From: Trogon surrucura
Lineage: Eukaryota; Chordata; Aves; Trogoniformes; Trogonidae
DNA: 64,000 bases
Direction of reading: 5' to 3'
NCBI GenBank assembly: GCA_020746105.1
Contig: CM036636.1
Location: forward strand, 7,812,001-7,876,000
How positions within the stretch are numbered: position 1 is the stretch's first letter; the number at the start of each line of letters is the position of its first letter. Below the pieces are notes generated by a model. That model was not told the origin of the DNA, did no database searches, and worked only from the letters and a program-made list of their open reading frames with translations. Below are positions 5,398 to 59,355 of the stretch, in pieces. Both the position numbers and the translations under genes were made by a program.

Positions 5398-5596
5398 CCC
5401 CGCCCCGCGCGCTTAAAGGGGCCGCGTTTCCCTCACGGGGCGTAACCCCTCCCGAGCGTTTATTAATGAGTTGTTCAGCTCTCAAAGTGTGGCTTAAGGA
5501 GTAAAAAAGACACGTTAATGCATCTCCCTGCCCCGCTAATAGCGACCGAGGGGGTGGGAGTCCCTTAAGGCCTCTCACGCCTCGCCAAGCCCTGCT

Positions 5597-19913
<14,317 letters not shown>

Positions 19914-23500: not shown

Positions 23501-24808
23501 TCCCGCTGGGATGCCACTTACCCTTCAAAAGCCTTTTCTTTAACCAGCACCTGCTCCACAGATTGGCCTGTGTCGAGTCCCAGATTTCTTCTGGCAATTT
23601 TTGCTGCTTCTGGTCCTATTGCTGCTTCAATATCTTTTGGATCGACGTCATCAAACCATATTTCAGGCCTGGTAAGTACAGATTTAATTACATTTAACAG
23701 TCTTAAGGCAGTCTTGCATCTTTATAAAGTACAAAGAGCGTATTTATTTCTTAAATCGATAAATTAGCTCTGTGAAAATTAGTACTGTCACCTATGCAGC
23801 TTCATTGCTGTATCTGAGAGGCAGGGGCAGCATGCATTTTATTTCTCCCAGAATTTGGTCTGGAAGAGTGCAGCTGTTTTGAAAGTGCTCCTTAGATACA
23901 CCGCCCAAAATACTCACACACGTGTATGATGCCCCAAGTACTCACTCTTTGGGCTGCTGCTCTGCATGTTCTTCAGCTTTCCTCCTCTTGTGTTTTATAT
24001 CACCTTTCTCCTTTAAAATATTGCCATTTTTCTCTTTGCAGACTTTTTCATTGCTTTTGGTGCCATTGACATTCTTGCCCAATGCAGCCCTCTCGGATTT
24101 TGGCTTAACCGAAGGGCTGTTTGGAGCAGAACCACTGTCCCTTTCATTTGGGGGTTTGGCCTTTACCACATTCCCGTTCTCGTTGATCGCTGGGATTTCT
24201 TGGTTGTTCTTCGCTTTGAGTGGATGCTTCTTTTTGGTGGCTGCTTGACGTGTAGAGACGGCCTTGTTGGAGCTATCTGTCTTTTGTTTCAGGAGCTAAA
24301 ACGACAAAAAAAGAGGAAGAAATTTCCACTCTCTGTTTCTGACTCTGGCTCCTGGCATTCTGCCTCGGGGCGAGTGGCCTCTGTTCGCCAGCTGCCTCTA
24401 AGGGAATTATCTGCAACGGGATGTCCCGCATCCCTGCCCGCAGCACTTAGTGACACAAAGATTAGTATTATTCTTTTTTTTAATGACCAGGTACAACGTG
24501 GGAGCGCAGTCCCAGGACGACAGCGTGGCCTCGGCCTTCCCGGCCGCCTTCCCCGTCCCAGCGCCCCGGGGCCTGGCTCCGGCTCGCCCCAGGCGACTCC
24601 CCGCGGTTCCCCTCACCTCCTGCAGCGCCTTCCAGTTGGAGGAGAACTCCCGGGGGCTGCGGGGAGGTCCCGCCGCCGCCGTGGCGGCTCCTTTCTGCGC
24701 CGGCCCCGCTGCCTCTTCCCCGCCGCCTCGCCGGCCCTTCTTCCTCCTCCTCCTCCTCCTGCCCTTCGCGCTCGGCCCCGGCGCCTCCGTGGGGCTCTCC
24801 TTCGCCAT
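20511..24808 (-). CDS. REXO4: REXO4, DEDDh 3'-5' exonuclease (RNA exonuclease 4 family)
   Basis: Exons in transcript order: 24808-24617, 24295-23946, 23668-23522, 23334-23141, 22730-22642, 22202-22128, 21431-21357, 20612-20511. All introns are GT-AG and the frame is continuous, giving 407 residues (human 422). Residues 1-180 are a low-complexity basic tail, including a GRRRRRRKKGRR cluster likely to act as a nuclear or nucleolar signal, and FSSNWKALQE, conserved with human. WFDDVDP..IEAAIGPEAAKIAR leads into the exonuclease domain. Catalytic motifs are AMDCEMVGVGPKG (D238, E240), HALRNDLK (D322) and EHCSIQDAQAA (H372, D377), so all DEDDh residues are present. The family is related to yeast Rex4, which acts in pre-rRNA processing; the human protein is nucleolar. 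The C-terminal tail is short, basic and poorly conserved. It shares a CpG-rich promoter with ADAMTS13. Confidence 0.95.
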
Positions 24809-25286
24809 CGGCCCGACCCCTCCGCGGTGCGGGGGGAAAGTGGAAGCGAATCCTAACCGGGCCGGGGCTACCGCTCCCCGCCACGCCGCGACCGGCCCCG
24901 CGCAGCGCCGCACCGGCCCGGCGGGGAACAGCGACCCGCGCTTCGGTTCCGGGCTGCGGGGCCTGCCCGGCCAGGGTCTGGCTGGGTGCCGTGGGCGGAG
25001 GAGAGGAGTGTGTCAGGGCTCAGGGAGTCCCTAACCCCCCCTCCCCGAGCAAAGCCCCGTGTGTGTGGTCGCTAAGCTCGGCACTGCCGCGCCCACGTTG
25101 CAAACATTGCGCAAAAACGCCCCGCGGTGCCCGCCAAGCCGCCCCCCCGGCTGCCCCTCGCCGCAGAGGATCAGCCCCCCTGTTTGTTTAAACCCTGCGC
25201 TCTCCCCTTCCGCTCCACGTGATGCCTCGGCCCAAACTTTGTTTTCACCCCCCTGGGCCCGCGGCGCCGGTCGCAGCTCCTCCAGC
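24809..25286. promoter_or_regulatory. Bidirectional CpG-island promoter of REXO4 and ADAMTS13
   Basis: The REXO4 ATG (24808-24806, minus) and the ADAMTS13 ATG (25287, plus) diverge and are 478 bp apart. The interval, and the adjoining REXO4 exon 1, are GC- and CpG-rich without an obvious TATA box. Both 5' UTRs must lie here unless additional upstream exons exist. Confidence 0.75.
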
Positions 25287-28200
25287 ATGACCGTCAGCCT
25301 GAGCCTCCGGGCGCTCCTCCTGCTCCCCTTGGGGCTCTGCTGGCCGCCGCCTTCCCAAGAGGTGAGTTTGACCTCCAGAAAACGCAGTTTCCAGGAAGAC
25401 TTTTTTTTTATTTCTAGGAAAAAAAAAAAAAGAAGAAGAAACAACGCAATGTGTTCCAAGCCCAAATCCATCAAACCTTGCTAATCGAGAAGATAAAGCT
25501 GTTTCCTCTGGGTGGCTGCTGTGCAGCCCATGCTTAGTGCAGAATAAAGCCGTGAGAACTTGGCGTCGGGGCGTGTTCAGTTGTTCGCTGGCATTCCTTT
25601 CAGGCTAGGTTTGGTTAAGCGATAGTCTTGTATCCATTTGTTTTTCTTGAAAAAAAAAACATAAAGCTCTTCTTCTTCTTCTTGCAGAAATTTCTCGGCG
25701 CTTTGGATGCAAAAGATGTTTTCTTCTATTTTGGAACCAGTTCAGTGTCTGATGGTATGCAGGGCTTCTTCCTTCTCGATTTTGGAACACGTCTGTCAGT
25801 TTATTTCTAATCCTGTGCATTCGATAACGCTAAGAATGCTTATTAATGAGCCCTGATCTGACAAGCATTTAGCATTTCTGAGCCATATTACTCAGTGAGG
25901 CAAGCCATGCTTCAGGGTGAAAGCAGTTGAACTACTGGGTCAGTATTTAAAATCTGGTGAAGGAGATATGATAAATCTTTTTGGACATTTCTACTACGAT
26001 CCTCGTTCTCCGTATTGGTATTTTTCTGCGAGATTAACAGATCCAGGTCTTCTTAGTAGGATAAGAATAACTTTGAATGTACTTGATATTTTTTAGGTTT
26101 GTTTTTTTTTTAAATAAACACATTGAGAGACTAGTATTCTTGGTCTGGATTAATGGTAGTTCAGAATTAAGATATGTTTTAAATTCTCAAATCCTTAGAG
26201 CAAGGCTGTTGGCTACTTGTGGATTCACCTGGTGCTCGTCTCGGTGTCTGTGTCCGGATTATGATAATTCTCACTCAGTAATACTTAACATCGGAGGAAG
26301 TAAAACTGTCTCAGTCTTTGTTAAATGGACTGTTCTCCTTACTGAGAGAGCAAAAGCACCTATAATTCTGGAACCAGTTTCAGAGCTGTTGTCTGTTCCC
26401 AGTCAGATTATCCTCACTTTAGAATACATGAAAGCAAACAAGTTCTTTGACTGTTGACACAAGGACCCCGAAAGGCCACAGCGATCCTTTCTAGAGTATT
26501 TTTTTCCTAGGGAAATAGATCATTACATTTGGTTTCAGTGTGTCATCATTTCTCATAACTGTTCCTCTTGTTTTGGTCTTGGTTAATTTCTTTCAGTACC
26601 TGAGTTTGTTGTTGCTGAGCCAACTTGCCCATGTAAAGAAGAACAGGTTGGGCTGTCGTCCTGTCGTATTCAACATTGCTCCATTGAGGCCTGGGGAGAA
26701 CTCTATGCCTTTGAATTTCTAGAGGACCATGCCCTCCTTTCCTCTTCCTTTGTGAGCAGTCAAGTGGTGAACTCTTCCTTTAGCTTGTTGAAGCGATTCT
26801 CAGGCAACTGCTTTGCAGGTGGAAATCCACTGCAGCCTCCTGGGGCGAAGTGCAGAGTCACTTACTGTGAAGGGCAGCTGGTGAGTATGCACTGAATTAA
26901 CTCTTACAAGCCCTTGCAGCCTTCATAGGTTTTCAGCTTGAAGCACCAAACGTGTGAACCATCCATTTAATAAAGCTGAGCATGACAAAGGAGAACCAGG
27001 AGGGATATGGCACACAGTTCTCCATTGGTAGCAAATGTCTTTGGAATCACTCAGAGATGGAATTTCATCTCCTTTAGCAAGGAGTCGTCATTGCAGATGG
27101 TGAGAAGATTCATGTCAGGCCTGTCAGAAGCAAAGATGTGGCCCTGCTGAAGGACCTCGGCTTCTCCAGACCCCACATTCTCTTCAGAAGTGCTGCGAGA
27201 GAGGCAAATGCACCAAGAGGTAACGTACATGGAAAGGAAGCCCTGATCGTTGTGCTTGGAAAAGCTGCCTTCTTGTGCTGGGGTTGCTTGCATGAGCTCA
27301 GTGGAAGAATCTGTGGATCTGTAGGATATTTTCTATTGTCTCGCTTTTTAAACTCCCCGTGTCCCTCTGTGCCGTTCAGCAGGGCCGTTTCCTTCTCGCC
27401 TGCAGAAGAGGGCTGAGGGAGCTGTCAAACATCTGGAGCTGATGGTTGTAGCAGGTCCAGATGTTTACTTGTACCACAAAGAGGACACGGAGCGATATAT
27501 TCTCACCAACCTGAACATTGTGAGTAGCTTTCTGTTTGGATTGCTGTCCCAGTGTGAGAGCCCAGTGTGAGAGCTTAAGTATCATGGGCTGTGTCACAGG
27601 CAGATGGACCTGTGTGAGTGCATGTTCAGAGGTGTTTGCGGTTACCTGTGGTTACCTGCGGTTACCTGTGGTTACCTGCTCCTGTGCAGGGTATTCCTCT
27701 CTGCTTCCCTTGGCACAGCTTGGCAAACTTTCCCTTGTACAAAGAGCTGCACAAGAAAAAGTGGATGTTGGAAGCTTCAGGGTTGTAACCTTAGTTAAAA
27801 CCCGTTAGAAAATGTAACTCTTAATTTCATTACTGATATTGCTGTATGTCAGATACAGTAGCAAGAGTTCTGTCACCAGAGCCTTGATCCAGGCCTTGTT
27901 GCTTTCAGTGAGTTTGAACAAGATCCACTGAATTAATCTTACGTTTTACGTCTCAGCGTTTTATTTCTACTGCAGGATTTATCTTGAATGTCTCCCTTTG
28001 CAATTATTAAGAATTTGTTTGTGCGTTTTCTGTGTGAGTGTATTGCAAAGCAGTCTTTAGCATTCACTTGCCTACCTTATGAAACTATTTTTCATGCAGA
28101 TTCTTCTCTCTGCATCAGAGTATCTGACGAGTCTAACAACAGTTCTTGTCTGCTGACAGATTTATTTCCATTTGTAGTGCATACTTTAATGTTGTACTTC

Positions 28201-31200
28201 CCAGTGACTTTATAGTTGCCCCTATGGTTACCAGGTGTGTTACCTGTGTAATGAGCACAGCCCTGTTATTTGGAACAGGTAGTGGGAGTCACCAAGGTGC
28301 CTTCTTTATTAAATCTTTCCTATCTTTTAACAGGGGGCAGAGCTGCTGAGAGATGCCTCACTGGGTGCTCATTTCAGGGTTCATCTTATGCAAATGCTTG
28401 TTTTGAGAGAACCAGAGGTAAGCAGGGAGGACTGTGTCCAAGTGTTGTCCAAGAGTTTTCTAAAAGCTGTATGAAATGCACAAATGTGTGCCTTCACTCT
28501 AGGCAGAGCTAAATATCACGGCAAATATCACCTCCTCGCTGATCAGCGTTTGTGAGTGGAGCAAGAAGGTCAACCCCCAGAATGACTCTGACCCTCAGCA
28601 CGCTGACATCGTCCTCTACATCACCAGGTACTGAAGCTCCCCTGCCCTGGGAGGGGACTGGGAGCAGGGATGTTGCTGTCCAGCTGTTAACACAGTGGCA
28701 GTGATGCACACTGGGTCTTCCAGCCGTTGGGCATCACAGGGCCTTTGGGAATGGCTTGATTCTCCTGTGTGGGGTTGACTCCCCTGCCCTTAGTGCAGTT
28801 AAGTCAGAGATGCTGTTTCTTCAGATTCTGAAGGAACTGGAATATTTCCCAAGCGCTGACCAGCCAGACTTGAGCGGACATTGTGTGCTTCCAGAGTGGC
28901 ACAGCCAAACCCACTGCAGCTTTTTGTGGGCAGAAAAGTCGAACAGTAACTGGAAGTGAAAACCCATGGGTGTCTTCTATGGAAGATTTCTAGTGCTGCT
29001 CTGACTCAGACCTTTTGTCTGACTTTCAGGCTCCTTGCTTGAAATTGCCGTGGCTAAATTTGTTGAAGGCAAACTTTTCTTGAGTGTAATGGATTTGTTT
29101 TGGTGCTCTTTCTTAAAAGAGATGGTGATACTGCTCTGTCTCTTGCAAGTAGTCATTTCATTCTGTTCTGCTTGTCTGGGGTCATGAGGATTTTTTAACC
29201 GCAGATTTTGAGCAGTGGGTGTTCATGAGACCCTGCTGCCACCATCCTGCCCCAGGGAGCTCCATGTGTCAAAAGAAATGTTAGATGGGTGGCAGAATTA
29301 GATCAGGAAGGTGCCAATAAATTCAGCTGAATGTCTAGACCTGACTTTATTAGCTGCAATAGTTCTTTGCTCTTTCATCTGTATCTGTCTCCCTTACTTT
29401 AGGTTTGACTTGGAGTTACCTGATGGGAACAAGGAGCTACGTGGAGTGACTCAGTTAGGTGGAGTCTGCTCCTCCTTCTGGAGCTGTGTTATCACCCAGG
29501 ACACTGGCTTTGACCTGGGAATCACCATAGCCCATGAGATTGGGCACAGGTCAGTAGAAAATCCCCAGAGCAGCCTAGTATGTTTTATTCAGGTAAAAAC
29601 ATTCTGCAATTTAAAGGACTCAGAAGGAGGAAAAGGATCTCTTGGCATAACAGGGGACTTCCTACAGATGATTCAAAACTTTTGGAAAGAGTTCCTTGCA
29701 TTTCTTGTATGCCTGCATGCCCTGTGACAATTAGAAGCTGCAAAGAAGAGATAAAACCTTTGTGACAATGGAAGAAGAAAAGGTTGCCAAGAGAGCTCAG
29801 TCCTTGCTTAGGCTCTGGGGGAACCCAGCCTCTGGGTTTCTTCTCCTTAGGGCACTGTGCTGCTTCTGTTACAGTCTTGGAATCCCCCATGATGGTGAGG
29901 GGAATGGGTGCAGCAGCAGCGGTTACATCATGGGTTCAGCAGGAAACCACAACAGCATCGACCTCACCTGGTCGCAGTGCAGCCGGCAAGAGTTCCTGGC
30001 CTTTGTCAGGTAAGGGAATGGTCGAGTTCTGTGTGCCCATGTGGGAGTGTTTGCCTGTGCTGAGAGTTTAGGAGAACGTAGGGAAAGACAAGGAATAAAA
30101 TAGGACATTCTTGAAAGAATGAGGAACTCTGAAAAGCTTGGGGTTTATTTATTTCTGAGCACTTTGTTGCTGTGGTTAAACCATTTTGCTTCAAGAAGCT
30201 GGAAATTACTTTGGTTCGTGATTAACATGCCTGGGCTCTGTTGGACTTCTCAGACACTAGCTCAGCCTGGAAATTTTATTTAAAATGTCAGAGCGTCTAG
30301 GTTCAAATAAGCGTTGTGGGCTGTGAGCCGACTGGGTGAAGAGCAGGGATGGATTTCTGTTATCAGTTCAGCAGCAGGGAGCTGTGAGCATCTCCAGGCA
30401 GCTGCTGTGGCTAAATCCATCACAGCCCACAGCGAGCACGTGTTGTCTGGGAAAGCAACAGCCAACTCCCAGAATGAAACTCAGCAGAAGTTTGCAAACA
30501 TGTCATTGTCCTTACTGCCCACAGCTGGGAAAGTGATGTTTCTTATGTTTCTATCAGCACAGGCCAAACAAACTGCTTAAATGACCTGCCGGACATGGAC
30601 GGCAGCATCCCTGGATGGAAGCCTGGCTTGTACTATGGAGCAGATGAGCAATGTAAAATAGCCTTTGGGAGTGTTGCCACAGCATGCACCTTTGCTGACA
30701 GCAGTGTTGTAGGTAGAAAGTTTGTTTGTCTTGCTAGGGCCAGCAGGGAAATGTTCTAGAGCCAAGATTCAGGAAGAGGGAACTGGGAACATTTTTTTTG
30801 TAATGAGTGGAAGGTGCTTTCCTGCCACGAATTTCTTGGCAATGAACAAACTTTCAAAGGCTTTTAAAATGCTTCCTTTCTCTCCATCACCTCCTTCACC
30901 CACATAAGTCACCTTTAAGGTTTGCACAGTACACAGAGCCCTCTGTCCAACCAGGGGCCTGGCAGTGCTGATGCCAGGGATGCCTGCTCAGGGTTCTGTC
31001 TTAGGGAGCTTTTGTTCATTGGATTTCTTCAGCTTCCCCACCATTGTGCAAGTCCCCTTATCTGGGAAATACAGCATGGCTAGTAGCTGCCATCTGGACA
31101 TGTTTTGTTAATGAGGAAGCACTAAGATGGGTGAAACTTTAATTGCTTCAGTTGGCCACCTTCTAGCATTACAGCTGGCAGTGCTGGTCTGTTGACATGC

Positions 31201-34200
31201 CCACAACTTTTGCCCAGCAGCAAGAGAAATGAAGGGACTTGGTTGCCTTGTTGGGTACCTGTGGGGAAACTAAACCTCTGGGACATGCACCATTTAAACA
31301 GAACAGCTTTTGGGACTGCTGTGTTGATGAGCCTCAGTGAGTCCCCAATCTCCCTGATTTTCTTGTCACACCAGGACATATGTGAAGTTCTCTCATGCCA
31401 CGTACAACCAGGAGACAAATCCAGCTGTACTCGGCTTCTTGTTCCCCTCTTGGATGGTACTGAGTGTGGAGTCAATAAGGTGAGGAAGCTGCTGATGTGA
31501 CGATGATCAGAAGTGGGTGGGGGTGCTATGGAGCTCATTAAATAGCAAGACGTGGTCAGTGGCTGGCACATTGCCCCTCGGCCAGGGAGCTGGGACCATC
31601 TCAGACGCTCCAGTCGCAAACTGATACCAGCTGATCTTGGTGTCTTCACCTTGTTCTGTACCTCTGGAGCTGCTTTGCAGTTCTGGAGCCTGATATCTGA
31701 GCTCTTCTCAAAGGCTTTTGCTTCCCACTTGAAGTAACCTATGAGGTCTTTGAACCCCAGCCTCATACTAGATGATAATTAGGAACGAGACTCTTCTAGG
31801 TTCTTGTGGGAAGGTGCCTCATTTATCTCGAGATTCTCTGTTACAGTCTGGCCTGCATAAAAATGGGGTGCCACCCCTGTAGATCCCAGCCCTGCTGGGT
31901 TCACTGCGGTGCTGCTGCCAGTTTTCTATGCTCTTGATCTTAGTGGTGCTCCAAGGGACAGTGTAGCTCTCTCGAAGACCTGAACCCCACGGCCGTGGTC
32001 CACGGGCAGTGGTCCAGCTGGAGCCCTTTCTCCTCCTGCTCCCGCAGCTGCGGAGGTGGAGTTGTCCTAAGGCAGCGGTTCTGTAACAACCCCAGGTAAG
32101 AGCTGGGGAGTTTGCAGTGGATCTTGGTTGATTCAGGGCCGTGGGGTCTGAGACTTGCTCGTTGCTTGGGACAAACCTGCCTCTGCTGAGGAGTTCTTCT
32201 CCTCTCATTTCCAGGCCTGCTTTCGGGGGGCAGGACTGCCACGGTGTCAGCATCCAAGCAGAGATGTGCAATACTCAGGTAATGGAGCTCATCACATCTT
32301 CCGAGCTTTTTCCTTAATGTTGTTTAACCCTTTGAGAGCTGAATGGTTTGGGACTGTACTTCTGACAGCAGACTGCTCTGGGAAGGGGGAATAAAGATCT
32401 GGCATACAGCCTCCATCTGTCTGACAAGAGGAGAGGTATTTGTTCCCCTGTGTCTGAAGACTGCAGTTTTATTTAATAGAGTCATTCACATGTAGTGATG
32501 CATTTTCTCTATGCTTTTATAGCAGGACAGATGCTGGGAAAATAATGTCTTGATGATAGTTTTCTTCAGCGGGTTATTCTTACGTTGTTCCTATTATTTT
32601 TACCCATTTATTTTGTATAAATATCAAAGAGAACAGCTTCCACGCACAATTCTCTGCATATCCTGTATCCTCCCTTTGAAATGATTTTTTTTATTTGCAG
32701 TTGTTTTGGTGTTTTATGTTCCAGCCACTGGTTTCTGCCCTTGCCTTGCGGGTAAAGTGCTGCTTGAGATTCTGTGCTCAGTAACTTCCTTTCATTACCC
32801 GTACAATTGTCTCTGCGATGTAGGCCTGTTTGGTGACCCAGCAGGATTTTATGGCTGAACAATGTGCAGCAACAAATTTAAAACCACTGTATCCCACTGC
32901 GGGAACTCCTTCATTTTACACCTGGACTTCTGCTGTTGGCTTTGCCAAAGGTAAGGAAAGAAGGAGAAACTGTGGTTTCTTTGTGGAGCGCTCGTGGACC
33001 TGTCCGTACTTCAAAGTCCAAAGACCGTTTCACTAATTGGTTTAGTTTTCATATGAAAGCTGGATACTCTTTCTGTCAGATCCTTTTGACTTCTTGCTGT
33101 TGCCTGATGGTCAGCCAGGTACTCTTGTGGAAGGGTGACTCCTCTCTCCTGCTCTCTGCCTCCTCCAGGGGACATGCTCTGCAAGCACATGTGCAGGGCC
33201 GTTGAAAAGGAATTCATGGTGAGCCGCGAAGACAGTTTCATAGACGGAACCAGATGTGAGCGGGATGATTCTGAGCATCACGGAGCTTTTGGTCTGTGTG
33301 TAATGGGAAGCTGCAGAGTAAGTGACTGGGAAATCCAGGTCAACCTCTCACATGGGATCTGCTCCACAGGAGTCACTTTACTAGGAGTAGGGGGGAAAAA
33401 ACCCCAGTGTCCCAAACAACCTCTTCTCAAATGAAGAGAGTTTTGTTCATAGCTAATTGGATGGAATCCAGCAAATCTACTCTTCTGTCTGTGCCTCCAA
33501 TGCCAGTGCCCTCTGTACAAAACATCCTGCCAATTATGCAGGAAGAATGTAAGGCTGTTCATCCCTAATCCAAAAAGCAACTGATTTGTGTTGGCTGAAG
33601 ATTGAGGAGACGTCATTAGCTGTTCTCTGCTGGAGAAAAGTTATATGATTTGAACCTACAGAGTCAGTGGCAAATTAAGGACTAAAATTGGGGAATTGTA
33701 AGTCGACAAATTGATTGCTGCACTTCAGAATTGAAGTGTAACTTTGTTTTTCTGGATCGGATGTGAGAAGGGCATTCTTTCTTGCTGAACTTGAATATAA
33801 CTCCCCCGCACTGTCTGCATCTCAGTAACTGCTCAATGCTGACCTGGTTGTATGTTTTCTGTTGTTTCTTTACATTCCCAGAATACACTCTTAACATTTT
33901 ATGGTTTTCTCATTATCTTCGTGTTCACAATGTTTTGTAATGTGTTTCCACCTAATGAACAGCAGAGGGTGTAGGCATAATCTGTTCTGATTTCTGCTAT
34001 TCTGTTGGCGACAGTGATAAATATGCATGTTATGGCAGCGTTCGAAGCCTGGGATCGGTGCCTCTAGCATAAATTCAGCAGTTGCACGTGTTTTGCTGCT
34101 AAGCCTGCTGAGATCCTCCTGTAGATTTGTGTGAGTTGGTCTTGTTCATGGGAACGAGGATCAAATCTCTTTCCTGAGCCGTGGGATTGAAGGCCAGGCT

Positions 34201-37200
34201 GAAGGATGTGAGCTAGGTTTGGGTTTGGAGGAGGTAAAGTTTCCTTTTGAACCTGCCATTCATGTTTATTGCTCTCCTGGGCTTCCATTTGTTCTTTTTT
34301 TTTTTTTCTTCCTGCTTTCCAGAAAGAGTCTGTAGAAGAGAGGAGGTGCAGAGCCCTTGTTTTAAGTCACAGGAGAAATCTTTCTGGGCTGCTTCATATG
34401 GGAAAGAAAATGTCACACAGTTAATGAATCTTGTTGTGCTTTCAGCTAAGACTGCCCAATCCCTTGCTTTGCATCCTGCTGTACAGTGGTAGATCTAGGT
34501 ACAAATGCTTCTTTCTCTATCTTGTCTTCTTAAATTCAAATTACAAATGAAAAAGGCTATCTTGAGAATTCAGGCAGTGTTGCTTTCATTTGCTTGTTTT
34601 CTTCTCAGAATAGGCAAGTCTTGACAGACTCTCCTTTTCACTCAGGCATTCGGGTGTGATGGCCAGATGGACTCCAAGAAGGTAATGGACTCTTGCAAAG
34701 TCTGTGGGGGTGATAATACTACTTGCACCAAAGTGAGTGGATCTTACACAGACGGAAAAGCTAAAGGTGTGTAGTCCTCCCCCTCAGGCTCAACATCGTG
34801 GTACTTTTCACATGCTGAGTGTCTGTGTGCATATTCGGTGTTCATAATCTTCTGTATGTGACTTCTGGTTTCTGCTTGATTTTGTTTTATGGAGGGTATG
34901 GTGGTGGAGTTTGGGTAGGCAACACAGATGGCAGCTAAGATCTGCTGTAGCAGGCAGGTAGCTGTTGTGTAGGCAGAGTGACTTTTTTGGTCATAGTTCT
35001 GGTCTGGACATAGACGAGAAATGCAGCCACTTGGGAAATTCAGCAAATTACTGGGATCTGGGGGCTGTATCAGAAGCTTCCCAAGATGTGAAACGTTCAT
35101 TTGGGAACTGATCTGACTCTTGCAGTATCACATACAGATTTCAGCAGAGAACATAAAAAGAACAAACAAAAGGTGAGAACGGGACACAGAACTCAATTCT
35201 GTTTTTTTTTGCTGTATTCACCGTCCCTGTGTTCAAGCCAAGCTGGTAGAGCTAAGGTCTGTCTGAATTTGTCCTGCTGGCCATCACTGTTGTATTATTT
35301 TTTGTATTAGCCATATAACCCTTGTCTGCAATTAAGCTTTGTTGCTACCTTTAAGGCTTGTCCTCCAGTGGGTAGCACACTAGCAAGGTGAGGAGGGGTG
35401 GATCTGTAATCCCCAGGTTTTTAATAGAGGTGCAGTAATGGAAGGTGACCGTCTCTTCTTTCTTTCCATCGCAGAGTACGTTACATTTCTGTCCCTGCCT
35501 TACAACACCACCTCGGTCCGTGTTACCAATCGGAGCCCACTCTTCACACATTTGGGTGAGTTGAATGAAAAGGAGAGGGACTACAGGCAGGGCTAAAACA
35601 AGCTTGCGAGAAAATGGAGTTTAGGAGGAAAGTTCTCGATGATGCAATTTGTTCGTGGAGTGCTCTCCAGTGGGAAGCAGCGGAAGTCACACACTTTGGG
35701 ATGCCTGACTTGGATCAAACTGGTTTCTAGCAAATGGGCAGCCTGTAGCTGCCAGCACCAGGGCCTCCTGGTGACCACGTCATATCTCTTAACCTCACTG
35801 TTACTTTGGCTCGTCTAGCTGTGAAGGTTAAAGGAGAATATGTGGTTGCTGGAAGAGGAAAAATTTCACTGAATGTCACCTATCCATCAGTTCTGGAGGA
35901 CAGCCAGATCGAATACAAAGTATTTCTCACCAAGGACAACCTGCCAAGCCTGGAGGAGGTCCATGTGGATGGGCCGACGCAAGAAGAAATTGAAATACAG
36001 GTAAATTAAAATAGCAGGGCTGGAAAGGGGCCAGTCAGAGCTGGCCAGACTGAGTTCGTGTAGCTCTGCGGCAGTGCGGAATCCAGACGCAGTCGGCTTT
36101 GTGTCCAAGGCCCGTGGAGATGATGTTCACTAAGAGTGATGGTGTTGCTTTTCTTGGGAAAGGTTGAGGGTTGGCTGCCTACAGGCTTTCTGCAGGTCTG
36201 GTGGATGGTTGTGTGTGGAAAAGCGAACCAAGTTAAACCTTTTGCTTGGCTTAATCTTTTTTAAGTGCCCCGTGCACAGAATTCACAGTGTGAGTGCTCT
36301 GATACATCTGGCAAGAATTGAGAGTCGTAGCGTTGAGGCGCAGGATTGGATGATAAAAAAGGAGATTAGCTTCTTTTATCTTTGTCCTAAGAAGTTGATT
36401 TGAGTTGATTTGTGCGTTGACCACAATTTTTTTCCTTCCCCAGGTCTATCGAAGTTATGCAAAAGAATATGGCAATGCCACCAACCCAGACATCACCTTC
36501 AGCTACTTTGTCCCCAAAGAGAATCTGACGTACACGTGGGTTCCTCAGCAGGGCCCGTGTTCAGTGACCTGTGGGGAAGGTGAGGCAGCAACACTCAGTC
36601 TTTGCTCTTATGGAGATCTGGGCAGACTTCTAGTTTGGTTGCCTGATAGTCACCCAAATCTTTATTCTCTGGGCTCTCGTGGGCTGACTGAAAGAAATAT
36701 GACATCAGCAATAAATACTTGGTTAGAACTTATTAAGTGAACTGGATTTAAAAGCAAATTGTGAGCTACAGTTGCCAGGGTTAAACTGGACCAAAGAAAA
36801 GAGTTGTACAGCTTTTGAATTAAATTAGCAAATCAGGAAAGGAGTGGAATGATCAAAATGATAGGGAAAATGTTTGATTGTGAAGAGGATTTTGAAGTAG
36901 GTCTTAACTGAAGTTTTGGGTTTAAGACTAAGTAATTTTCTCCGATTTTTCAAAGTTGTTGAAGACGGTAATTTGAAGTTGGCTAAACATCAAAAGTCTG
37001 AGACCAAAGTGGTATCTAGTGTCTAACTAAAGCCTCAGAGCTAATTATGAAACTTCCTTCTTAGAATTCTATTCCTGTGCCTTGGCTAATCCTTGCTGTC
37101 TCCCCGAAGAAATCAAAATGCAGATTGTAAAGGATCACTCTAGTAGATGGTGTGACGTCTTGTTTACCAGATAATACAGATGACACTGGCAAGCCTCTCA

Positions 37201-40200
37201 AGACTTTTATGACAAGAATTTAGAAAATATGTTAATAAATACTTACGGAAGTCAATCTACAGGACCAGTTATGTCTGGAGAGGTTTTCTCCAACAGATTC
37301 TCCAGGTGAACTGATTGCTGAAACCCTGAAGTAAAGAACTCAGAATGCTCTCAGGCTTTCTGGTTAATGCAGTCACAAACAAAAAAATGAGAAAGCTGGG
37401 ACATAAAATAACAGAAAGTTGAGAATCCGAGCTGAAATTGCATTGTGAGAGCTGAAAGTGATGCTCAGCCCCTTCTTACCAATAGGAGGGTAGTGAAAAG
37501 ATAGCATTGCTGATTGATTCTTGACATTTGCTTCTTAGGGTCATTCTCTTTCTCTCTCTTTGTGGGTGGCTCATTCACTGCAAAGGAGACTCTTTCCAGC
37601 TTTGCTTATAACTGTTTTGACTTCAGATTTTCACCTGCTTTACCTGTTAGGTTCAGTATTGTTGAACACCTTGTATAGCTGTAGTTTTATAGCTGTACTT
37701 TATGATTTTTTCGTTTCCTGCGTGCCACAGGTGCTGTAAGTTTGCAGTTTCTCTCGCAGTGCCTCTAGTTTTGGGTATTCATGATCACTTTGAGGACATT
37801 GGCACGATGCTGTCTGAGTACAAAGGCTGCGTGATGATATTACGTGATCAGTTCTGCAGAATGTAATTTAAAAATACCTGACCGCTAGAGCTTATTTTCA
37901 GCAACCTGTCCCTCATCAGTCAGACATCAAGACCATTAGAAGTAATTCGCACCAAATTATGATTGATATCCTTGTTCTTGCAATCGGCCAGTTTAGAGCA
38001 ATCTCTCCATTTTGGCAGTGGGTTATCCATCACACTTAGCATCTTCTGGGGTGTTCGTCTTGGAAAGCCACTTTAAAACTCTTGAGGGAAGTTATATCAG
38101 AAAGAAGGGGTTTGTGTGTTTGTAGAAACATTCCCAAATACACCAGTTTCCTACACAGATGATTTGAGTAAAGCAAAATTACTGCATCTTCCTAGCTTGA
38201 TAAAGGTGAGCTGTTCACTTTGTAACTTCCTTTCCTTCTCCTTTTGTATCCCAGGGATGCAACCAGTGGATCATGTGTGCTTTGACCAGACAAAGAATGA
38301 AATAACAGAGGATCAGTGGTGTCTGGAGCTGCCACAGCCCCTTTCAGAGCACAAGCCCTGTGCCATGGAGCCATGCCTGTACAGGTTGGTGTTCCTGGAA
38401 GCTCAGATGAATTCTTGCTTCACTTGTCCTTTCTCTGCCAACTAACCCAGTCTCTGCGGTCTCATTTGCATCGTGCAAAGTGAAAAACGGAGAGTTGTGT
38501 GGTAATTTCTCCCTAATTATAATGGCGTGGAGGATCCCAAATGATGTTCTGTCTTTCCTGGTCCCATGAGGTAATTGAGTTGTCAACTGAATGAATGGGA
38601 AATAGTCCTTCCACTATTTCACAGGAGTCTTCTAAATGAATACAGTTAGAGAGCATGGCCAGAAGAAGACGTCTGCTCATATCCTTTCCAAGATTGTGTC
38701 AACAGAGATTGGATCTTACTCTGGAGGAGACCCTCCTGTTAATTAGACTGGAAAGAGGACTGAGCCAAGCCTGCCCAGATATTGATCTCGTAGGCATTTT
38801 AGTGTTTAATGAAAAGTGGTTACACTGTGAACTAAACTCTAAGCTTAGGTGCTCTTTGCCCTAGAGAGCAGTCACTGCAAGCACTTGAGTTTCCAGCAGT
38901 TGTCCTCAGTCACATACAGACAAGGCTCTTGAAGCAGAGAAGCCGAATACTCTGTATGACCCTTTTCTGTAATCAGTGGCATAATAAACCTCCACGATCC
39001 AGATGAAAAATAGCGTGATACAATTACTTCCCATTTAGGTGGAAGATGTCTCAGATAGGCGAATGCTCTGCTGTCTGTGGAACTGGAGTTGCCCAGCAGA
39101 ATCTGACCTGTGTTCAGTTTCGTGATGGACTGGAGACTGTTGTGGATGACAGCTTGTGCCCGGCAGAAGAAAAGCCCCTCTCCGTTGTGCCGTGTGTGGT
39201 TAATGTCTGCCCTTTAGGCTGGGACAAAGTGAGTTCACTGGCTTGGCTTATTTCCAGAGTCTTACTGTGGGAGCTTTGCACTTGTGATTCACAGGGGGCT
39301 ACCAGCTAAGAACCACCTTACTGCTGGAGTCTGGGAGGGTGGTTTACACCAAGGATGTCTGCCCTGTCAGAGGTTCATCCTGTCACTTTAGACAGCTCTG
39401 TCCCTCTTAGTGCTGCTGAATTTGTCAGTTCATAGTGGTGGTTTGTTTAGGGCAGCTGTTGATTATGTTCTCTCTTCATTTCACCTCGTAGAGTCCAACA
39501 AAACCAGAAACAGAAATAACTCCTGGCCACAAGGAAGTACCTCAGTGGCAAACAGAGAGGTTCTGACATGATAGGGAGGATTGTTAGCGTGGAAGAGGGC
39601 TTCTCAGCACAGCATCACTGGTCCAAATCCATACTGGGGAGCCACTGCCAGGTTTACTTTTGCAGATGGGGGAGGTACTGCTTTAGGCATCTCCAGTCTC
39701 AGGTATCTCTTTTCAGGTAGTCTGAATTAGGAGGGTCTTGGCTGTTGGATGTCCTTAGCTATTCGTGATACTTATGTGTTCTGCAAAAATGGAGAAAGTG
39801 CTTGAATGTGCCTCTTTCTTCAGTGACAGCAACTATGTTGTAGGCTTGATCTGGAGAATCCCCCAGCTTCATTAGACCAGGACTGGTGTGGAAAGCAGGT
39901 GCCAATGTCAGTCTGGGTCTTTTTGCTCTGTTCTGAGGAGGAAGATGCACACTTGCTTCAGACTTCAGAGTCACTTGGCCATACCCAGTTGGAAAATCGG
40001 ACTGTATATGTCTGGAGCCCTCGAGCTGGAGAGTGTTCTGTCTCCTGTGGTAGAGGTGAGATCTTCCAGTGCTGCAGGAAAATGTTACTTGGCTGTAGGT
40101 GTGAGCTTAATGCCTGGGAACCTCAGGGACCTGGTCTAAGTGCATGTGTAGCTATGACCACAATGTTTTTTTGAGTCTGGAAGAGGCAAGGGGGCCTGAC

Positions 40201-43200
40201 TTAGAGATGGAATAGTTGGGAGAGCTGACTGGCTGCTGCTGCGCATCAGCGTTGAGGGAGATGAGTGCAATAAGTGTGCCTGGGGCTTGGGCAGAGTTGG
40301 GCTTGTTTTGTACGTGCAGATGTAACTGACACTGCTTGGCTTATTTTCAACCCTTGCGTGCATGCCATGCAGTAAGATCACTTCCCTTGCTAGGTAAGAC
40401 TCAGCTACAGTATGTTTGTGTGGCTTTTGACACCAAAGAAGAAACCCAAGAAGAAAACTGTCATCCGGTGCCAAAGCCAGAGAGCAGGACGGAAGTCTGC
40501 GACCTCAGTCCCTGCCCACCAAGGTAAAGCAGTTATGAGGAGACAACGAGCCCGGGAGAGGTCTTTCCTTCCTCTCTCTGTCTCCAGATAGAGTAAGGGT
40601 CGAGCTGTGGGACTGGAAGGCCACTTTCATCTGAACTTCTTTTACATGCTCCCAGGATGAAGTATGTTGGGTCGGTTTCTGATCTGATCGTTCAAAGGGG
40701 GATGTGCGTTTTGAAGGGAGATAAGATTGTTTCTGCAGCTAAGCCTGTCTATGTCACCCTGGGAAAGACTGTAATGGACACTGAGTCTCAATGTAAATTT
40801 TAAGTCTGTGAGCTTCTTGCAAAATGCGAATCCCTTCTGTTTGGGTCCAAATCCAAACCTGATCCAGACTGCCACGCCTTGTTTCAAAGGCTGCTGTGTG
40901 AGTGCTCTAGGCAGCAAAGCATGTGAGGCAGAGGGGTGAAGAAAGCTGCAGAGAAGCAGAAGGGGGAAGGATGAGCGAGTTAGAGCGCATTTTCTACAGT
41001 GAGTGATAGCAGAGGGTGGGGATTCATCACTAACTTAATTTTTCCTCCTCCATGTCCTCTGTCAGATGGAAGGTAACCCCAGCTGGCCCCTGTTCCTCCA
41101 GCTGTGGGCTTGGCTTAGCTGTTCAACTGGTCACCTGTGTGCAGATTCACCAGGGCAAGGAGATTCTGCTGGAGGAACATTTGTGTCCTGTGGCGGAGAA
41201 GCCTCTTACCAGCATCCCCTGTGTCATCCGAATGTGCTCTTACGAATGGAGCTTCAGCGAGTGGACAGAGGTATTTGCTCCTGTTCAAATGCAGCTCTTG
41301 GTGTCTAATGCAATGGTTTTATAACATTCCCTTCCCTAAAGCATGCAAGAGAGAAATACCACTTGTGCCTTGTATATTTACATCAGCAAGGCCTTTGACA
41401 CCGTCTCCCACAGCATCCTCATAGGTAAACTGAGGAAGTGTGGTCTGGATGACCAAGTAGTGAGGTGGGTCGAGAACTGGTTGAAGGGAAGAAGCCAGAG
41501 GGTTGTGGTCAATGGGGCCGAGTCTGGCTGGATGCCTGTGTCTAGTGGGGTCCCTCAGGGGTCAGTGCTTGGGCCGGTGCTGTTTAATATATTCATCAAT
41601 GATCTGGATGAGGGATTAGAGAATGTTGTCAGCAAGTTTGCTGATGATACGAAGTTGGGGGGAGTGGTTGACACACCAGAAGGCTGTGCTGCCATTCAGA
41701 GAGACCTGGACAGGCTGGAGGGCTGGGCGGGGAGAAATCTTATGAAGTTTAATAAGGGCAAGTGTAGAGTTTTGCACTTGGGAAAAAATAACCCCATGTG
41801 CCAATATAGGTTGGGGACTGCCCTGCTGGAGAGCAGTGCAGGGGAAAGGGACCTGGGGGTTCTAGTGGACAGCAGGATGGCCATGAGCCAGCAGTGTGCC
41901 CTCGTGGCCAAGAAGGCCAATGGCATCCTGGGGTGTATTAGAAGGGGAGTAGCAAGTAGGTCAAGAGAGGTCCTCCTGCCCCTCTACTCTGCCCTGGTGA
42001 GGCCGCATCTGGAATATTGTGTCCAGTTCTGGGCCCCTCAGTTCAAGAAGGACAGGGAGCTGCTTGAGAGAGTCCAGCGTAGAGCCACAAAGATGGTGAA
42101 GGGAGTGGAACATCTCCCTTATGAGGAAAGGCTGAAGGAGCTGGATCTCTTTAGCTTGGAGAAGAGGAGGCTGAGGGGTGACCTCATCAATGTTTATAAA
42201 TATGTCAAGGGGGAATGTCAGGAGGATGGAGCCAGGCTCTTTTCAGCGGCGTCCACTGACAGGACAAGGGGCAATGGGTGGAAGCTGGAACACAGGAGGT
42301 TCCAGAAAAATATGAGGAAAAACTTTTTCACTGTGAGGGTGACTGAGCACTGGAACAGGCTGCCTAGGGAGGTTGTGGAATCTCCATCTCTTGAGACATT
42401 CAAAACCCGCCTGGACGCGTTCCTGTGCGCTCTAGTGTAGGTGATCCTGCTCTGGCAGGGGGGTTGGACTAGATGATCTTTGAGGTCCCTTCCAACCTTT
42501 AACATTCTGTGATTCTGTGATTCTGTGATTTACTTCCCACAGAAATGCTCAGCTGTTCACAGAGATGTTTTCCAGCCTTTCCACTGCCCTGTTTTGAGCA
42601 GCCGTAGGTCTGCTCCCCACCTTTCTCAGCTAAGATTTTGGCTGCAGTTTAAAATTGGTCCTTGGCATGTTTTCTCCTGGAACGCAGATCTTTTGGGATT
42701 TTTTAGGACGTGGTTCTGCAAGTCAGAGATACAGTTTGAAGATCCACTGGGAGGTGGGCCATCTTATAGCTGATGAAATGAAAGCACTGGAAGGGCCAGT
42801 GGCAGAACAGCGTCAGTGAACAGTGATTAGTCCTTTGGATCATGCCTGAGTCAAAAAATGAGTTTATTTCTAAATACCAACTAAAACACACGTATAAAGG
42901 CCTGTGGTTTTCTGCTTCCGCAGTGTTCAACGTCGTGTGGGAATGGCATTCAGACACGGCAGGATTTCTGCCTCAACCCGCTAACCCGTAAGCACGTGAA
43001 CCCCATCTTCTGCAGACACTTCCCCAAGGCCATTGTGGTACGTGGCTGCTCCGCAGGGCCCTGTCCTGAGCAGGTGGTGGGCACCCGATTCCCTGGAGCA
43101 CAACTGCAGACAGTGACACCAGCTGCTCATCTGACGGCAGCTGCAACTGCCAAAGAGGCGAGATACAAGGACCTGGTTCTGCCTCCATCTCCTGTGCCTC

Positions 43201-45363
43201 AGGAGCAGACAAAGACCAGTGGAGGTGAGGAGGACACTACCAAAAGGTAGGCATAGGTGCTTACTGTGTGCAGCTGGATTGTGGTGACCCTAGTTCTGTA
43301 CAGGGACAGGAGCATGGGAAGGGGACTCCTGCTTAGGAGGGACAACATGCTCTTCTTTCCAGCATGCTCTCAGGTGTCCATGTTATCTGAGTCAGGAACA
43401 GTGACTCGCTTCCCTGGGCTTCCCAAAGCTCTTCTGACTTGGGACTCTTCCTGTGCTCCACCCAGAAGGTGGGCACACTGTTGCCACTTGTCTGCCAACC
43501 GTGCCACGAAGGGAACAGGGGCTGTTTCTTGGCAGCTGTAGTTCCTTCTGGATGTGTTTCTCATCTGCCTCTGCTGTGCAGGTGTCTGTGGAAAGCTCTT
43601 TCTTAATGCCACCGGGGTCATCAGCATGATGGGGCTAGAGAGCAGCGACTGCACTGTGGCCATCGGACGTCCTCTCGGGGAGGAGATAACAGTCACCGTC
43701 CTGGAGAGCTCCCTCAACTGCAGTGCAGGTACTGCCCAGGGCATGCTGGGACTCGCCTGGCCCTTTGGGACATCTGCATCTTTCTTGCCCGTGTGATTTG
43801 GGTGCCCTGAAAGGGTTTTGGTACCTTGGAACCTGTGTAATCTCTGAAACCATTTTAGAAGTTTTTCTGTCCCACCAAGTTGTTGCCAGATGGGACTAAA
43901 TGAAGATGCTGCCTTTCCTCCCTCTACATCATGGTTTCTTACCCATTTTGTTGGTAGATATGAGATGAAAGGAGTTTACAGGGTTAAAGTAGATCCTTGC
44001 TTTGGCCTGTTACAAACTCTAATATACCCTCTTGCTGGAATCAATACAGTTAGATCAGTTAGCTGGACTGTTTTCATGACAGGTTTTGATAAGATATGGA
44101 CAAGATACAGAAATTACTCGAATCCAGACCTATATCAGATAGGTTTCAGCCTTTTACTTGCAGTAAAACTGTTTCTAGTCCCTGTGCTCTCCCATTCCAG
44201 GTGAGGTAGTGCTCTTCTCTGGGCGAATGATGTGGCGGACGGGCTGCCGGAAGCTCCCGTTGTCACTGATCAATTCCAGAACGAACACGCTGATTGTGAA
44301 ACAGCGTGTTTTGCTGCCAGGAAATGGGGTCATTCTTCAGTACAACAGCAGAAATGCAACTAAAAAATATTACCAAGGTACTTTACTGAATCCTTTGCTA
44401 TTGCTTTAGATTAAGGCACCCATGACAGGGCCCGTAGAGTTCCACAGGTCACGGTTGCTTATGGAAATCTGTGGAAACCTTCCTTCCTTTTTAGCAGCTA
44501 ATAAGCACCTTCTTGAGAAGTGATGGAATTAATATTACTTGTGGACTACCCCTCTGTTCTAAAAGCAAGGCCCCTGCAGGTGTTTGCTCATGCTTGGAGG
44601 TTCCCAGATGAAAATCCTTCGAGAAACTTTCCTGCCTGTGTTTAGTTTAAATTATTTCTTTCTTGGAGATGCTGGACACTTCTGTAAATCATTTTCTTTC
44701 CTGCTCCCTTTTTTTTTTTTTTCCTCTCAGACTGTGACAAGCAGCTGTTTGGTCCCCAAGGGGAAATAGTGAATCCTGTGCAATTGCCTGATGAGATGCA
44801 AGAAGTGGTGTGTCGGACCTTCATCAACGTGGCTCCTCGGCATCGCATCGCTATCCGCGCCCTGTATGTTGACCTGGGCAATAAGAGCAACCAGACACAT
44901 TTTAATTACATCCTGGTGAGTCAGAAACCTAAAGGGGATGATTGGGATGGGAATGGACTCATCTGCTCATTAGAGATTTCCATCCAGGTGCGAAGTTCAG
45001 TCACAAATCCTAGAGGATCAGACTCTGATCTCTGTTATGTAAACGTAGATGTGAATGAGCGCTGCTGATGTCCACTGTATTTCTTCTAACCTTTGGATAA
45101 GGCACCTTCTGCCCCTGAGTGACCAATTTGCCAGTCCCCAGTATTTTGTGGGTCCTTCACTTGTAGACTGTTACGCTACAATGGTTTGGTCTTTCTTTAT
45201 GTAGGTCCGTGATGTAAGCACCATGAAGACGATGGTGTTCCACGGGAAGCAACAATTCTTCTGGCAATCAACGGGAAGCCAAGCTGAGATTGAATTTCAT
45301 GGAAATTTTAAGGAACACCAAACCAGCTTCTGGGCTGAATACCATGCTATTGAGCCCAAGTAA
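25287..45363 (+). CDS. ADAMTS13: ADAMTS13, von Willebrand factor-cleaving metalloprotease
   Basis: Secreted zinc protease that cleaves von Willebrand factor in plasma. Exons: 25287-25361, 25688-25754, 26597-26880, 27078-27219, 27383 (or 27380)-27519, 28334-28417, 28503-28627, 29403-29549, 29875-30009, 30558-30708, 31375-31479, 31944-32095, 32215-32278, 32824-32950, 33169-33317, 34646-34766, 35475-35555, 35819-36000, 36444-36579, 38255-38384, 39039-39228, 39938-40055, 40394-40523, 41066-41270, 42924-43224, 43582-43728, 44201-44377, 44731-44915, 45205-45363. The frame is continuous: 1401 residues (human 1427). Order: signal peptide (1 to about 20), a long Cys-rich prodomain ending QKR (to 199), protease with HEIGHSLGIPHD (349-360) and Met-turn IMGSAG, disintegrin-like (about 399-484), TSP1-1 (about 485-556), Cys-rich, spacer (about 690-810), five more TSP1 repeats, and two CUB domains from about 1180. 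The two CUB domains are specific to ADAMTS13 in its family. Oddities: the prodomain is far longer than human, there are six TSP1 repeats rather than eight, and the RGD is replaced. The exon 4/5 junction is the least certain. Confidence 0.95.
27641..27680 (+). repeat. Short 10-bp tandem repeat in ADAMTS13 intron 5
   Basis: Four head-to-tail copies of GTTACCTGTG/GTTACCTGCG, with the ninth base alternating T/C (the last copy ends GCT), so the array can also be read as two 20-bp units. It starts about 120 bp after the exon 5 donor. Confidence 0.85.
36580..38254 (+). other. ADAMTS13: ADAMTS13 intron 19, no gene content seen
   Basis: The longest ADAMTS13 intron, 1.7 kb, separating the two halves of the second TSP1 repeat. 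It is AT-richer than its surroundings. I found no extra TSP1-like exon (no CSxxCGxG codon pattern in frame) and no clear CR1. Confidence 0.55.
41370..42531 (+). mobile_element. CR1 retrotransposon, 5'-truncated, sense orientation in ADAMTS13 intron 24
   Basis: A non-LTR element with the CR1 3' end: GGGGGGTTGGACTAGATGATC, then GAGGTCCCTTCCAAC, then direct repeats of ATTCTGTG at 42508-42531. It begins inside the reverse-transcriptase domain, the usual 5' truncation, at roughly 41370 where the translation becomes recognisable ([13 protein letters not shown]). It sits in the same orientation as ADAMTS13, between exons 24 and 25. I could not identify a target-site duplication. Confidence 0.93.
41385..42440 (+). 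pseudogene. Remnant CR1 ORF2 with reverse-transcriptase core, uninterrupted
   Basis: About 350 codons stay open without a stop or frameshift to TAG at 42438. Visible reverse-transcriptase landmarks are KAFDTVSHS (motif A region with catalytic Asp), [19 protein letters not shown] (motif B), and [10 protein letters not shown] (motif C, the YxDD equivalent as FADD), followed by the CR1 C-terminal segment with [26 protein letters not shown] and [14 protein letters not shown]. The endonuclease domain, ORF1 and the start of ORF2 are missing, so it cannot be autonomous. The ATG at 41343 lies in host intron sequence and is coincidental. Confidence 0.88.
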
Positions 45364-46498: not shown

Positions 46499-47249
46499 TG
46501 ATTCTGCCTGGGCAGTATTAACCCTCCTTCTGCTTTCTTTCAGTTGAATTCTCTGACTTCTTTTTTACAACTGCAAAATTTTATTTTCTTCTGTCTTTTT
46601 AATAGTTGTTTTTTTGCTGGTTAAGCCTGGAGTTTTTTGCTTGCCAGCCTCCAGATTTACGTTCCATTCCTGGAGGAGCTAGAAAGTAGATTCTGGAAGC
46701 GAGATCCTCTAGGAGCTGGATGTGTCAGCTTATCCCACTGCAGTGCGTGGGTGATGCAGACACCGGGCCTTCGTTTCCTGTCTAACAGGAGATGTTAATG
46801 AAAAGACGTCCTTTTCTCTTAATCCTTTTTTGGTAACCTCTTAGCAGATGGGATCTGTCTTCCCGCTCTGCTCTGGATCGCAAGTCTCACTGCGATTTAT
46901 TGTTCCAGATCAACTATGCAGAGTCTCTGGTCTGTAGGGATGGGCTCTGGTTACTGACTCTGTGCTCCATGTTGTTTGCAAAAAACACAGCTGTTGTCTT
47001 TATAATTTAAGAGAATTAAGGCCATTTCCCAGTACCGCTTGTGTGGATACCAGCGCGTTGCTAACTGGGTCATCTCTGGCTTGCAAAGTCCTGCTCATAC
47101 TCGCGTTTTCTAGGGTGAAACCTAATTCCGTTCAGACTGAGGGAAGCATTCCCCTCTTACCTCCAGAATTTTATGACACTGTTAAATTCCTTTTAATGCA
47201 AAACCTCATATTTTGCTTTCTTCCGAGCATGCTCTGCCTGCCTGGATCT

Positions 47250-47716
47250 GACCAGCATCCAGCCCTTCGCCGGGGAAGCGGGACCCCGAGCTCCCGCGCA
47301 CCCCCAGACCCTGGTGCGGAGCGTGTGCCCGCGCCGCCGCTTATGAATATGTACACGATGGGATCTGCCCACCGGCCTTTTAATTCCAGTGACATCAAAG
47401 CCCTGCCTGCTTGGAGGAGGGGACCCACAATGCAATACGCAGGCAGACGTGGAGGCAGCTCCCCGGGCCGCTGGCATCGCTGCTGCAGGCACAGACCTTC
47501 CATTGTCAGCCCTGGGGGGCCGCCGGGGGCCAGGCCCTGCGTGGGGGTGCGGCGAGAGGCTCGGCAGCTGCGGGGTTGGGTTTAGGGGCTGGCTGGAGGA
47601 GCGGGGTACGGGGTTGGGTGGGTGAGTGTAACCTGGGGGTGTTGGGGGGGGGAATCCTGCGCTGCTGGGGCTCAGGCGGGGAGCGGGGCGCTGCCCCCTG
47701 ACCCCCTGGGAGCGCG
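47250..47716 (+). promoter_or_regulatory. CACFD1: CpG-island promoter and 5' UTR region of CACFD1
   Basis: GC content and CpG frequency rise sharply from about 47250 and remain high through CACFD1 exon 1. No TATA box is obvious near the ATG. The transcription start probably lies within the few hundred bases upstream of 47717. Confidence 0.6.
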
Positions 47717-53552
<5,836 letters not shown>

Positions 53553-58746: not shown

Positions 58747-58937
58747 ATGTGGCAGCTTTTTGTACAAAATATCTGGCTCTTCCTCTTTCGCAGTCCTTAA
58801 GTACGTGAGACTCATCTAGGAAGCCGCAGGTCTCTGTGGTCTCCTTGCCACAGTCCTGGGCTGCCTCTCCCATCCCACCCGCCTGCAGCTCCTTCTCTGC
58901 AAATCAACGCAACATCTTGCACCTGGAGCAAAACTGT

Positions 58938-58943
58938 TTTATT
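58938..58943 (-). terminator. SLC2A6: Candidate SLC2A6 polyadenylation signal
   Basis: TTTATT on the plus strand reads AATAAA on the minus strand, 413 bp after the SLC2A6 stop (59356-59358). Another copy is at 59074-59079. Both are within 350 bp of the last plus-strand AATAAA of the CACFD1 side, so the two genes converge closely. Confidence 0.5.
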
Positions 58944-59355
58944 CTTGCAACTACACGATGAGCTTTTTGCCAAAACAGCTACAACTGTTAACTCTGTTCC
59001 AGCCAAAGTCTCAGACTGCTTTGGTGGCTACCTAGTGAAGGACGTGCGTGGTCTCTTGTCCACAGCCACACCTTTTATTTTCCTTCCAGGACATCTTGAT
59101 CTCCAGCCTGGAGCTGGTTACCGGGTCCCGTACCTTGGGTTGATGTTGCCCAGGCAGCAACAGGTAGTGTTGAATGACAGGAAGAGAAGATAAAGTTCTA
59201 GTTGCAACTTCTACACCCAAAGCGAGGTGATCATTGCTGCCCAGTCCTTTCCTGTTGCCTTCACAGAGAGCTCCAGCCTCCACCTCCAGCAGCACAGCGG
59301 TTGGCTTTGTTGCCCTTGAGCGTGTGGGCGCGTAGCCCAGCACAAATGGCAGCTC

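Follow-up and report, generated by a model that had tools for sequence, protein, structure and literature searches.

Human ADAMTS13 is made with a propeptide of 41 residues that ends in RQRR (passages of PMC3787661), and several papers on the enzyme, in the portions that concern this segment, present its shortness as a trait of ADAMTS13 as such. The prodomains of related ADAMTS enzymes are presented, in the parts of the literature that deal with them, as aids to folding and secretion (PMC8275829, PMC10499240, PMC4448532); the propeptides of ADAMTS7 and ADAMTS9 are described there as chaperones (PMC10499240), and ADAMTS17 is said to require its own in order to be secreted (PMC8275829). On whether a cysteine switch is general in ADAMTS enzymes, the relevant passages of PMC4448532 and PMC6706451 are at odds. 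In sections of the latter paper, Petri et al. state that Arg193, Asp217 and Asp252 are unique to ADAMTS13 and conserved from human to zebrafish, and they suggest that the fold which keeps the enzyme latent may accommodate its non-inhibitory propeptide (PMC6706451). Portions of two further papers place ADAMTS13 beside ADAMTS2, ADAMTS3 and ADAMTS14 (PMC549037, PMC4349717).

Here we describe the ADAMTS13 gene of Trogon surrucura as found in the window, that is, the whole stretch of 64,000 nucleotides that was analysed. The propeptide predicted from it comprises E25 to R199, or 175 residues. We consider it probable that this gene keeps a full-length, diverged prodomain of the M12B type that descends from the common ancestor with ADAMTS2, ADAMTS3 and ADAMTS14, and that human and mouse have lost the counterparts of its exons 3 and 4.

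The ADAMTS13 gene and its neighbours

The features of the gene are collected in Table 1. Joined together, exons 1 to 5 read open over 235 codons and every intron between them is of the GT-AG type, which bears out the exon coordinates and in-frame splicing proposed in an earlier note on this DNA. The same note had counted about 175 residues ahead of a QKR/AEG processing point, in agreement with the length given above, and the motifs to which it called attention (CPCKEEQ, CRIQHC and a third one) are all present in the translation. The predicted mature chain begins AEGAVKH. We infer that exons 1 to 5 are used in transcripts; exon 1 was modelled from its start codon, the signal-like peptide and its splice sites, and nothing else. 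Another start for exon 5, at 27406, has an acceptor score of 9.2, higher than that of the modelled start at 27383, but was rejected because exon 4 ends in phase 1 and the frame would shift. The splice scores were trained on a set of exons that included exon 5, so that its own scores are circular.

Table 1. Features of the ADAMTS13 locus, in positions of the window.
Feature	Position	Strand	Remarks
ADAMTS13 exon 1	25287..25361	+	75 nt; start codon, signal-peptide-like peptide; donor score 10.4
ADAMTS13 exon 2	25688..25754	+	67 nt, phase 0 to 1; putative counterpart of the mammalian propeptide exon
ADAMTS13 exon 3	26597..26880	+	284 nt, phase 1 to 0; putative prodomain core, first part
C119 to C138	26809..26868	+	alignable with the two cysteines of the ADAMTS3 reference sequence CAYVGDIVDIPGTSVAISNC, itself matching PF01562
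ADAMTS13 exon 4	27078..27219	+	142 nt, phase 0 to 1; putative prodomain core, second part
Tandem CAGCAG acceptor of exon 5, first half	27380..27382	+	use of this site would insert a single Ala without a frameshift
ADAMTS13 exon 5	27383..27519	+	137 nt, phase 1 to 0; encodes the linker, the processing site and the beginning of the catalytic domain; equivalent of human exon 3
Predicted convertase site RLQKR	27397..27411	+	cleavage before AEG; P1 Arg, P2 Lys, P4 Leu
Rest of ADAMTS13	28334..45354	+	catalytic, disintegrin-like, TSP1, Cys-rich, spacer, further TSP1 repeats, CUB region
Arg at human Arg193	29440..29442	+	gatekeeper kept; 6qig alignment
Asp at human Asp217	29512..29514	+	gatekeeper kept; 6qig alignment
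Ala (GCA) at human Asp252	29939..29941	+	gatekeeper not kept; 6qig alignment, gap-free around the site

By its sequence the gene is clearly the orthologue of ADAMTS13, and this orthology is not in doubt despite the long propeptide. A spliced stretch of 603 residues matches PDB entry 6qig (human ADAMTS13) over query residues 6-602 with an E value of 8.4e-268, the best chain of the PDB that is not ADAMTS13 being ADAMTS-5 (E 1e-54), and the reprolysin, disintegrin-like, TSP1, Cys-rich and spacer domains are present according to Pfam and the 6qig match. One scan each of the viral_contigs and genome_contigs collections, neither of which is intended for vertebrates, with a 49-residue peptide of the catalytic domain gave no orthologue. 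For the C-terminal CUB region, tblastn with a reference copy of human ADAMTS13 aligned pieces spanning residues 1191 to 1405, and Pfam gave a single CUB match of 18.1 bits, under the cut-off of 21.4. The exon model is rough between about 38255 and 42924, and we did not rely on this part. The spacer region at 36444-36579 differs from the human QVYRRYGEEYG and has Ser at the position of human Arg660, a known exosite residue.

On the reverse strand, an open frame at 24407-25012 (MAKESPTEAPG...FSSNWKALQE) lies head to head with ADAMTS13. Its product resembles the start of REXO4, presumably the neighbour of ADAMTS13 in human and mouse too, and the two genes possibly share a promoter. Sugar-transporter-like open frames at 59836-63613, also on the reverse strand, probably belong to SLC2A6, as the synteny of the region would suggest. 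Within an intron of ADAMTS13, the forward strand at 41340-42440 holds an open frame of 366 residues for a reverse transcriptase, which we take to be that of a CR1-type LINE, and the length of the frame suggests that this copy is fairly young and points to a sauropsid genome. A long open frame of a repeated unit at 5595-6545, reverse strand, is apparently a tandem repeat array.

Prodomain similarity across exons 3 and 4

The prodomains of the family and the N-termini of human and mouse ADAMTS13 used for comparison are reference copies that do not come from a database, and the only check on the six prodomains was how they themselves scored with PF01562, five of them lying above the cut-off and ADAMTS5 below it. 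An HMM built from these six prodomains gave 17.9 bits over residues 77-160, which exons 3 and 4 encode, against 8.8 for the best of 1000 shuffles. Local alignment to the ADAMTS3 prodomain scored 70, and the alignments to ADAMTS1 and ADAM12 scored 59 and 58; for each of the three, none of 500 shuffles was as good. The alignments to ADAMTS2 (20/500 shuffles as good, which is marginal), ADAM10 (64/500) and ADAMTS5 (435/500) were unconvincing. With hhalign, the comparison with the family scored 35.6 at a probability of only 64.7; 100 shuffles reached 20.5 at most and the reversed sequence 14.5. The pattern C-x3-G ... C-x-G-L-x-G ... P, taken from the reference members, is present with an insertion of one residue in CEGQLQG.

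Pfam PF01562 (Pep_M12B_propep) gave no match to the propeptide at E values up to 10; in the reference members this model extends over no more than the initial part of the prodomain, and the conservation of that part is weak in the present protein. A search with an HMM of the propeptide family, proposed earlier as a check, had a divided outcome, positive with our six-member HMM and negative with PF01562. A Pfam listing of DUF687 on the prodomain was discarded as noise (E 0.015-0.025, and 0.17 in another run, far under its cut-off), and in the search of the PDB by sequence the prodomain matched only an Fc-receptor-like stretch with an E value of 1.4, which we ascribe to chance. Exon 3 folded alone from the single sequence had a mean pLDDT of 38.1.

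The open frame of exon 3 alone scores 6.6 bits and ranks first among the 2628 open frames of at least 15 residues in the window, though its E value is 0.93. When exons 1-3 were joined to each of the 109 AG sites between 26940 and 28299, the modelled acceptor at 27078 came first with 17.5 bits, the next one reaching 10.6; of the 72 donors between 25900 and 26999 that were tried in front of exon 4, the best was the modelled one at 26881, with 18.4 bits. What goes beyond chance is this similarity at the protein level, which requires this very splice. Together with the HMM, hhalign and local alignments, the splice-dependent score upholds the resemblance to ADAM/ADAMTS prodomains that the earlier note had claimed.

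Two other kinds of evidence were rejected. Among 4000 comparison windows, which were taken from introns and from 46500-64000 and possibly include some exons of neighbouring genes, 648 of the length of exon 3 and 2034 of the length of exon 4 were open in some frame. With codon usage learned from the other exons of the gene, 1314/4000 windows scored at least as high as exon 3 and 1663/4000 at least as high as exon 4, and we left codon usage unused because the two exons could not be separated from the comparison windows.

Processing, latency and the gatekeeper residues

By analogy with related enzymes, we infer the function of the prodomain as a whole. In the ER, it would fold against the catalytic domain and help its folding and exit from the cell; a proprotein convertase would then cut RLQKR|AEG, perhaps inefficiently. 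The end of the prodomain departs from the furin motif R-x-K/R-R by the Leu at P4, and furin or a different convertase may still cut at RLQKR.

Exon 3 encodes all seven cysteines of the propeptide (58, 60, 70, 75, 119, 133 and 138) and one N-glycosylation sequon (N106). In the translation no Cys lies between C138 and R199, and for this reason the prodomain would silence the enzyme by no classical cysteine switch. The conventional folding or latency prodomain suggested earlier is not supported, in its latency part, as it was written, with no Cys after C138 and PF01562 unmatched. The reference prodomains of ADAMTS2 and ADAMTS3 likewise lack any Cys in the corresponding interval.

With seven cysteines, one or more must stay without a partner inside the domain, and such a cysteine might give latency by reaching the zinc as a substitute for the classical switch. 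We regard this as unlikely. The odd count and the lack of any Cys after C138 would suit it, as would the finding that only C119 and C138 have Cys counterparts in the ADAMTS3 reference and that Ala replaces Asp252, to which a role in self-latency has been ascribed; but the usual place is empty, the candidate switch Cys of the ADAM12 and ADAMTS1 references following the conserved pair, and a free cysteine could equally pair with another molecule.

The Ala at the position of Asp252 would be a natural variant at a site for which conservation from human to zebrafish has been described; it is seen in one genome and might stem from a local sequencing error. If zebrafish has the triad, then the triad predates the loss of the exons in mammals, and the Ala is secondary in this lineage. 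We also considered that two alternative ways of quieting the enzyme were swapped between lineages: this sauropsid would keep the prodomain, possibly still attached through the poor furin site RLQKR, with one gatekeeper lost, and in mammals, having lost the prodomain exons, the gatekeeper lock would have become indispensable. This appears quite improbable; if it were true, the ADAMTS13 of bird plasma would be a true zymogen or a complex with its prodomain.

Probable exon loss in mammals and comparison with known enzymes

The main transcript might join exon 2 to exon 5, giving a propeptide of about 33 residues with exons 3 and 4 rarely or never used, or both forms might exist. Together the two exons form a symmetric pair (284+142 = 426 nt, phase 1/1) that can be skipped without loss of frame, and the codon usage of the pair is neutral. 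Its splice sites are comparatively weak: the acceptor of exon 3 scores 3.6, lower than that of all 19 other exons of the gene with which it was compared, and the donor of exon 2, the acceptor of exon 4 and the donor of exon 4 score 4.8, 5.4 and 5.3. Nevertheless, an unused pair is not expected to hold 142 open codons and a prodomain-like alignment across its own junction, and we find skipping rather unlikely. A lineage-specific insertion or an exonised intron is a very improbable source of the extra residues, in spite of the absence of a Pfam match, the modest HMM and hhalign scores and the fact that five cysteines out of the seven, among them those of the CPCKEEQ...CRIQHC cluster, have no counterpart in the ADAMTS3 reference, since the similarity is colinear, correctly placed in the protein, extends across both exons above all 1000 shuffles, and the modelled junction came first of 109 and of 72.

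The reading that we favour, an ancestral prodomain reduced in human and mouse, agrees with the exon numbering. In the portions of PMC8549186 that give the human gene structure, codons 96, 98 and 102 are in exon 3 and intron 4 begins at c.414+1. In the window, the codons equivalent to these three lie in exon 5, and exon 6 (28334-28417), of 84 nt, ends at the codon equivalent to residue 138; from this numbering, the window has two more exons upstream than human. Aligned without gaps, exon 2 has 8 of 22 residues in common with the mouse reference peptide (1/20000 shuffles as good) and 5 of 22 with the human one (15/20000). No match was found between exons 3-4 and residues 1-78 of the human reference (490/500 shuffles as good). 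Loss of the 426 nt in phase 1/1 would leave the frame intact and a mammal-like propeptide of about 33 residues, such that in the short propeptide of human and mouse the equivalent of exon 2 would be followed directly by that of exon 5. The shortness in mammals is therefore best read, from these sequence comparisons, as the loss of two exons; the exon numbers and the exon 2 match fit the earlier proposal that the human short form is derived. Given the placement of ADAMTS13 beside ADAMTS2, ADAMTS3 and ADAMTS14, the long form is more simply taken as the ancestral state, and the loss may extend to mammals other than human and mouse.

In the literature searched as full text, mostly open-access papers, no long ADAMTS13 prodomain outside mammals was reported; automatic gene models may already show it. 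Our analysis suggests that the short human prodomain is a secondary loss and not a hallmark of the enzyme. If the prodomain is kept outside mammals, the shortness becomes a two-exon loss that can be dated; if our reading is true, human intron 2 can be searched for remnants of the exons, and the role of the prodomain can be tested by adding it back or removing it.

Among the known systems, ADAMTS9, ADAMTS10 and ADAMTS17, which belong to other subfamilies, have long propeptides as this protein does, and in them removal by convertases is no simple on-switch; the same may hold here. ADAMTS10, according to passages of PMC8275829, has a degenerate furin site, as RLQKR is here. The missing P4 Arg also brings to mind the poor processing of ADAMTS10. 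Closer in the tree, the ADAMTS3 reference has the same order NC...G...PG...C-x-G...L-x-G...P, followed by an H in the stretch ahead of the linker, and no Cys between the cysteine pair and the processing site; the present prodomain differs from those of ADAMTS2, ADAMTS3 and ADAMTS14 in its five further cysteines, the extra residue at CEGQLQG and the lack of a PF01562 match. With human and mouse ADAMTS13 the present gene shares the catalytic-to-spacer domains, the exon 2 peptide and an exon 6 that has the length and end of human exon 4, and it differs from the human enzyme in having RLQKR in place of RQRR, Ala in place of Asp252 and two exons more.
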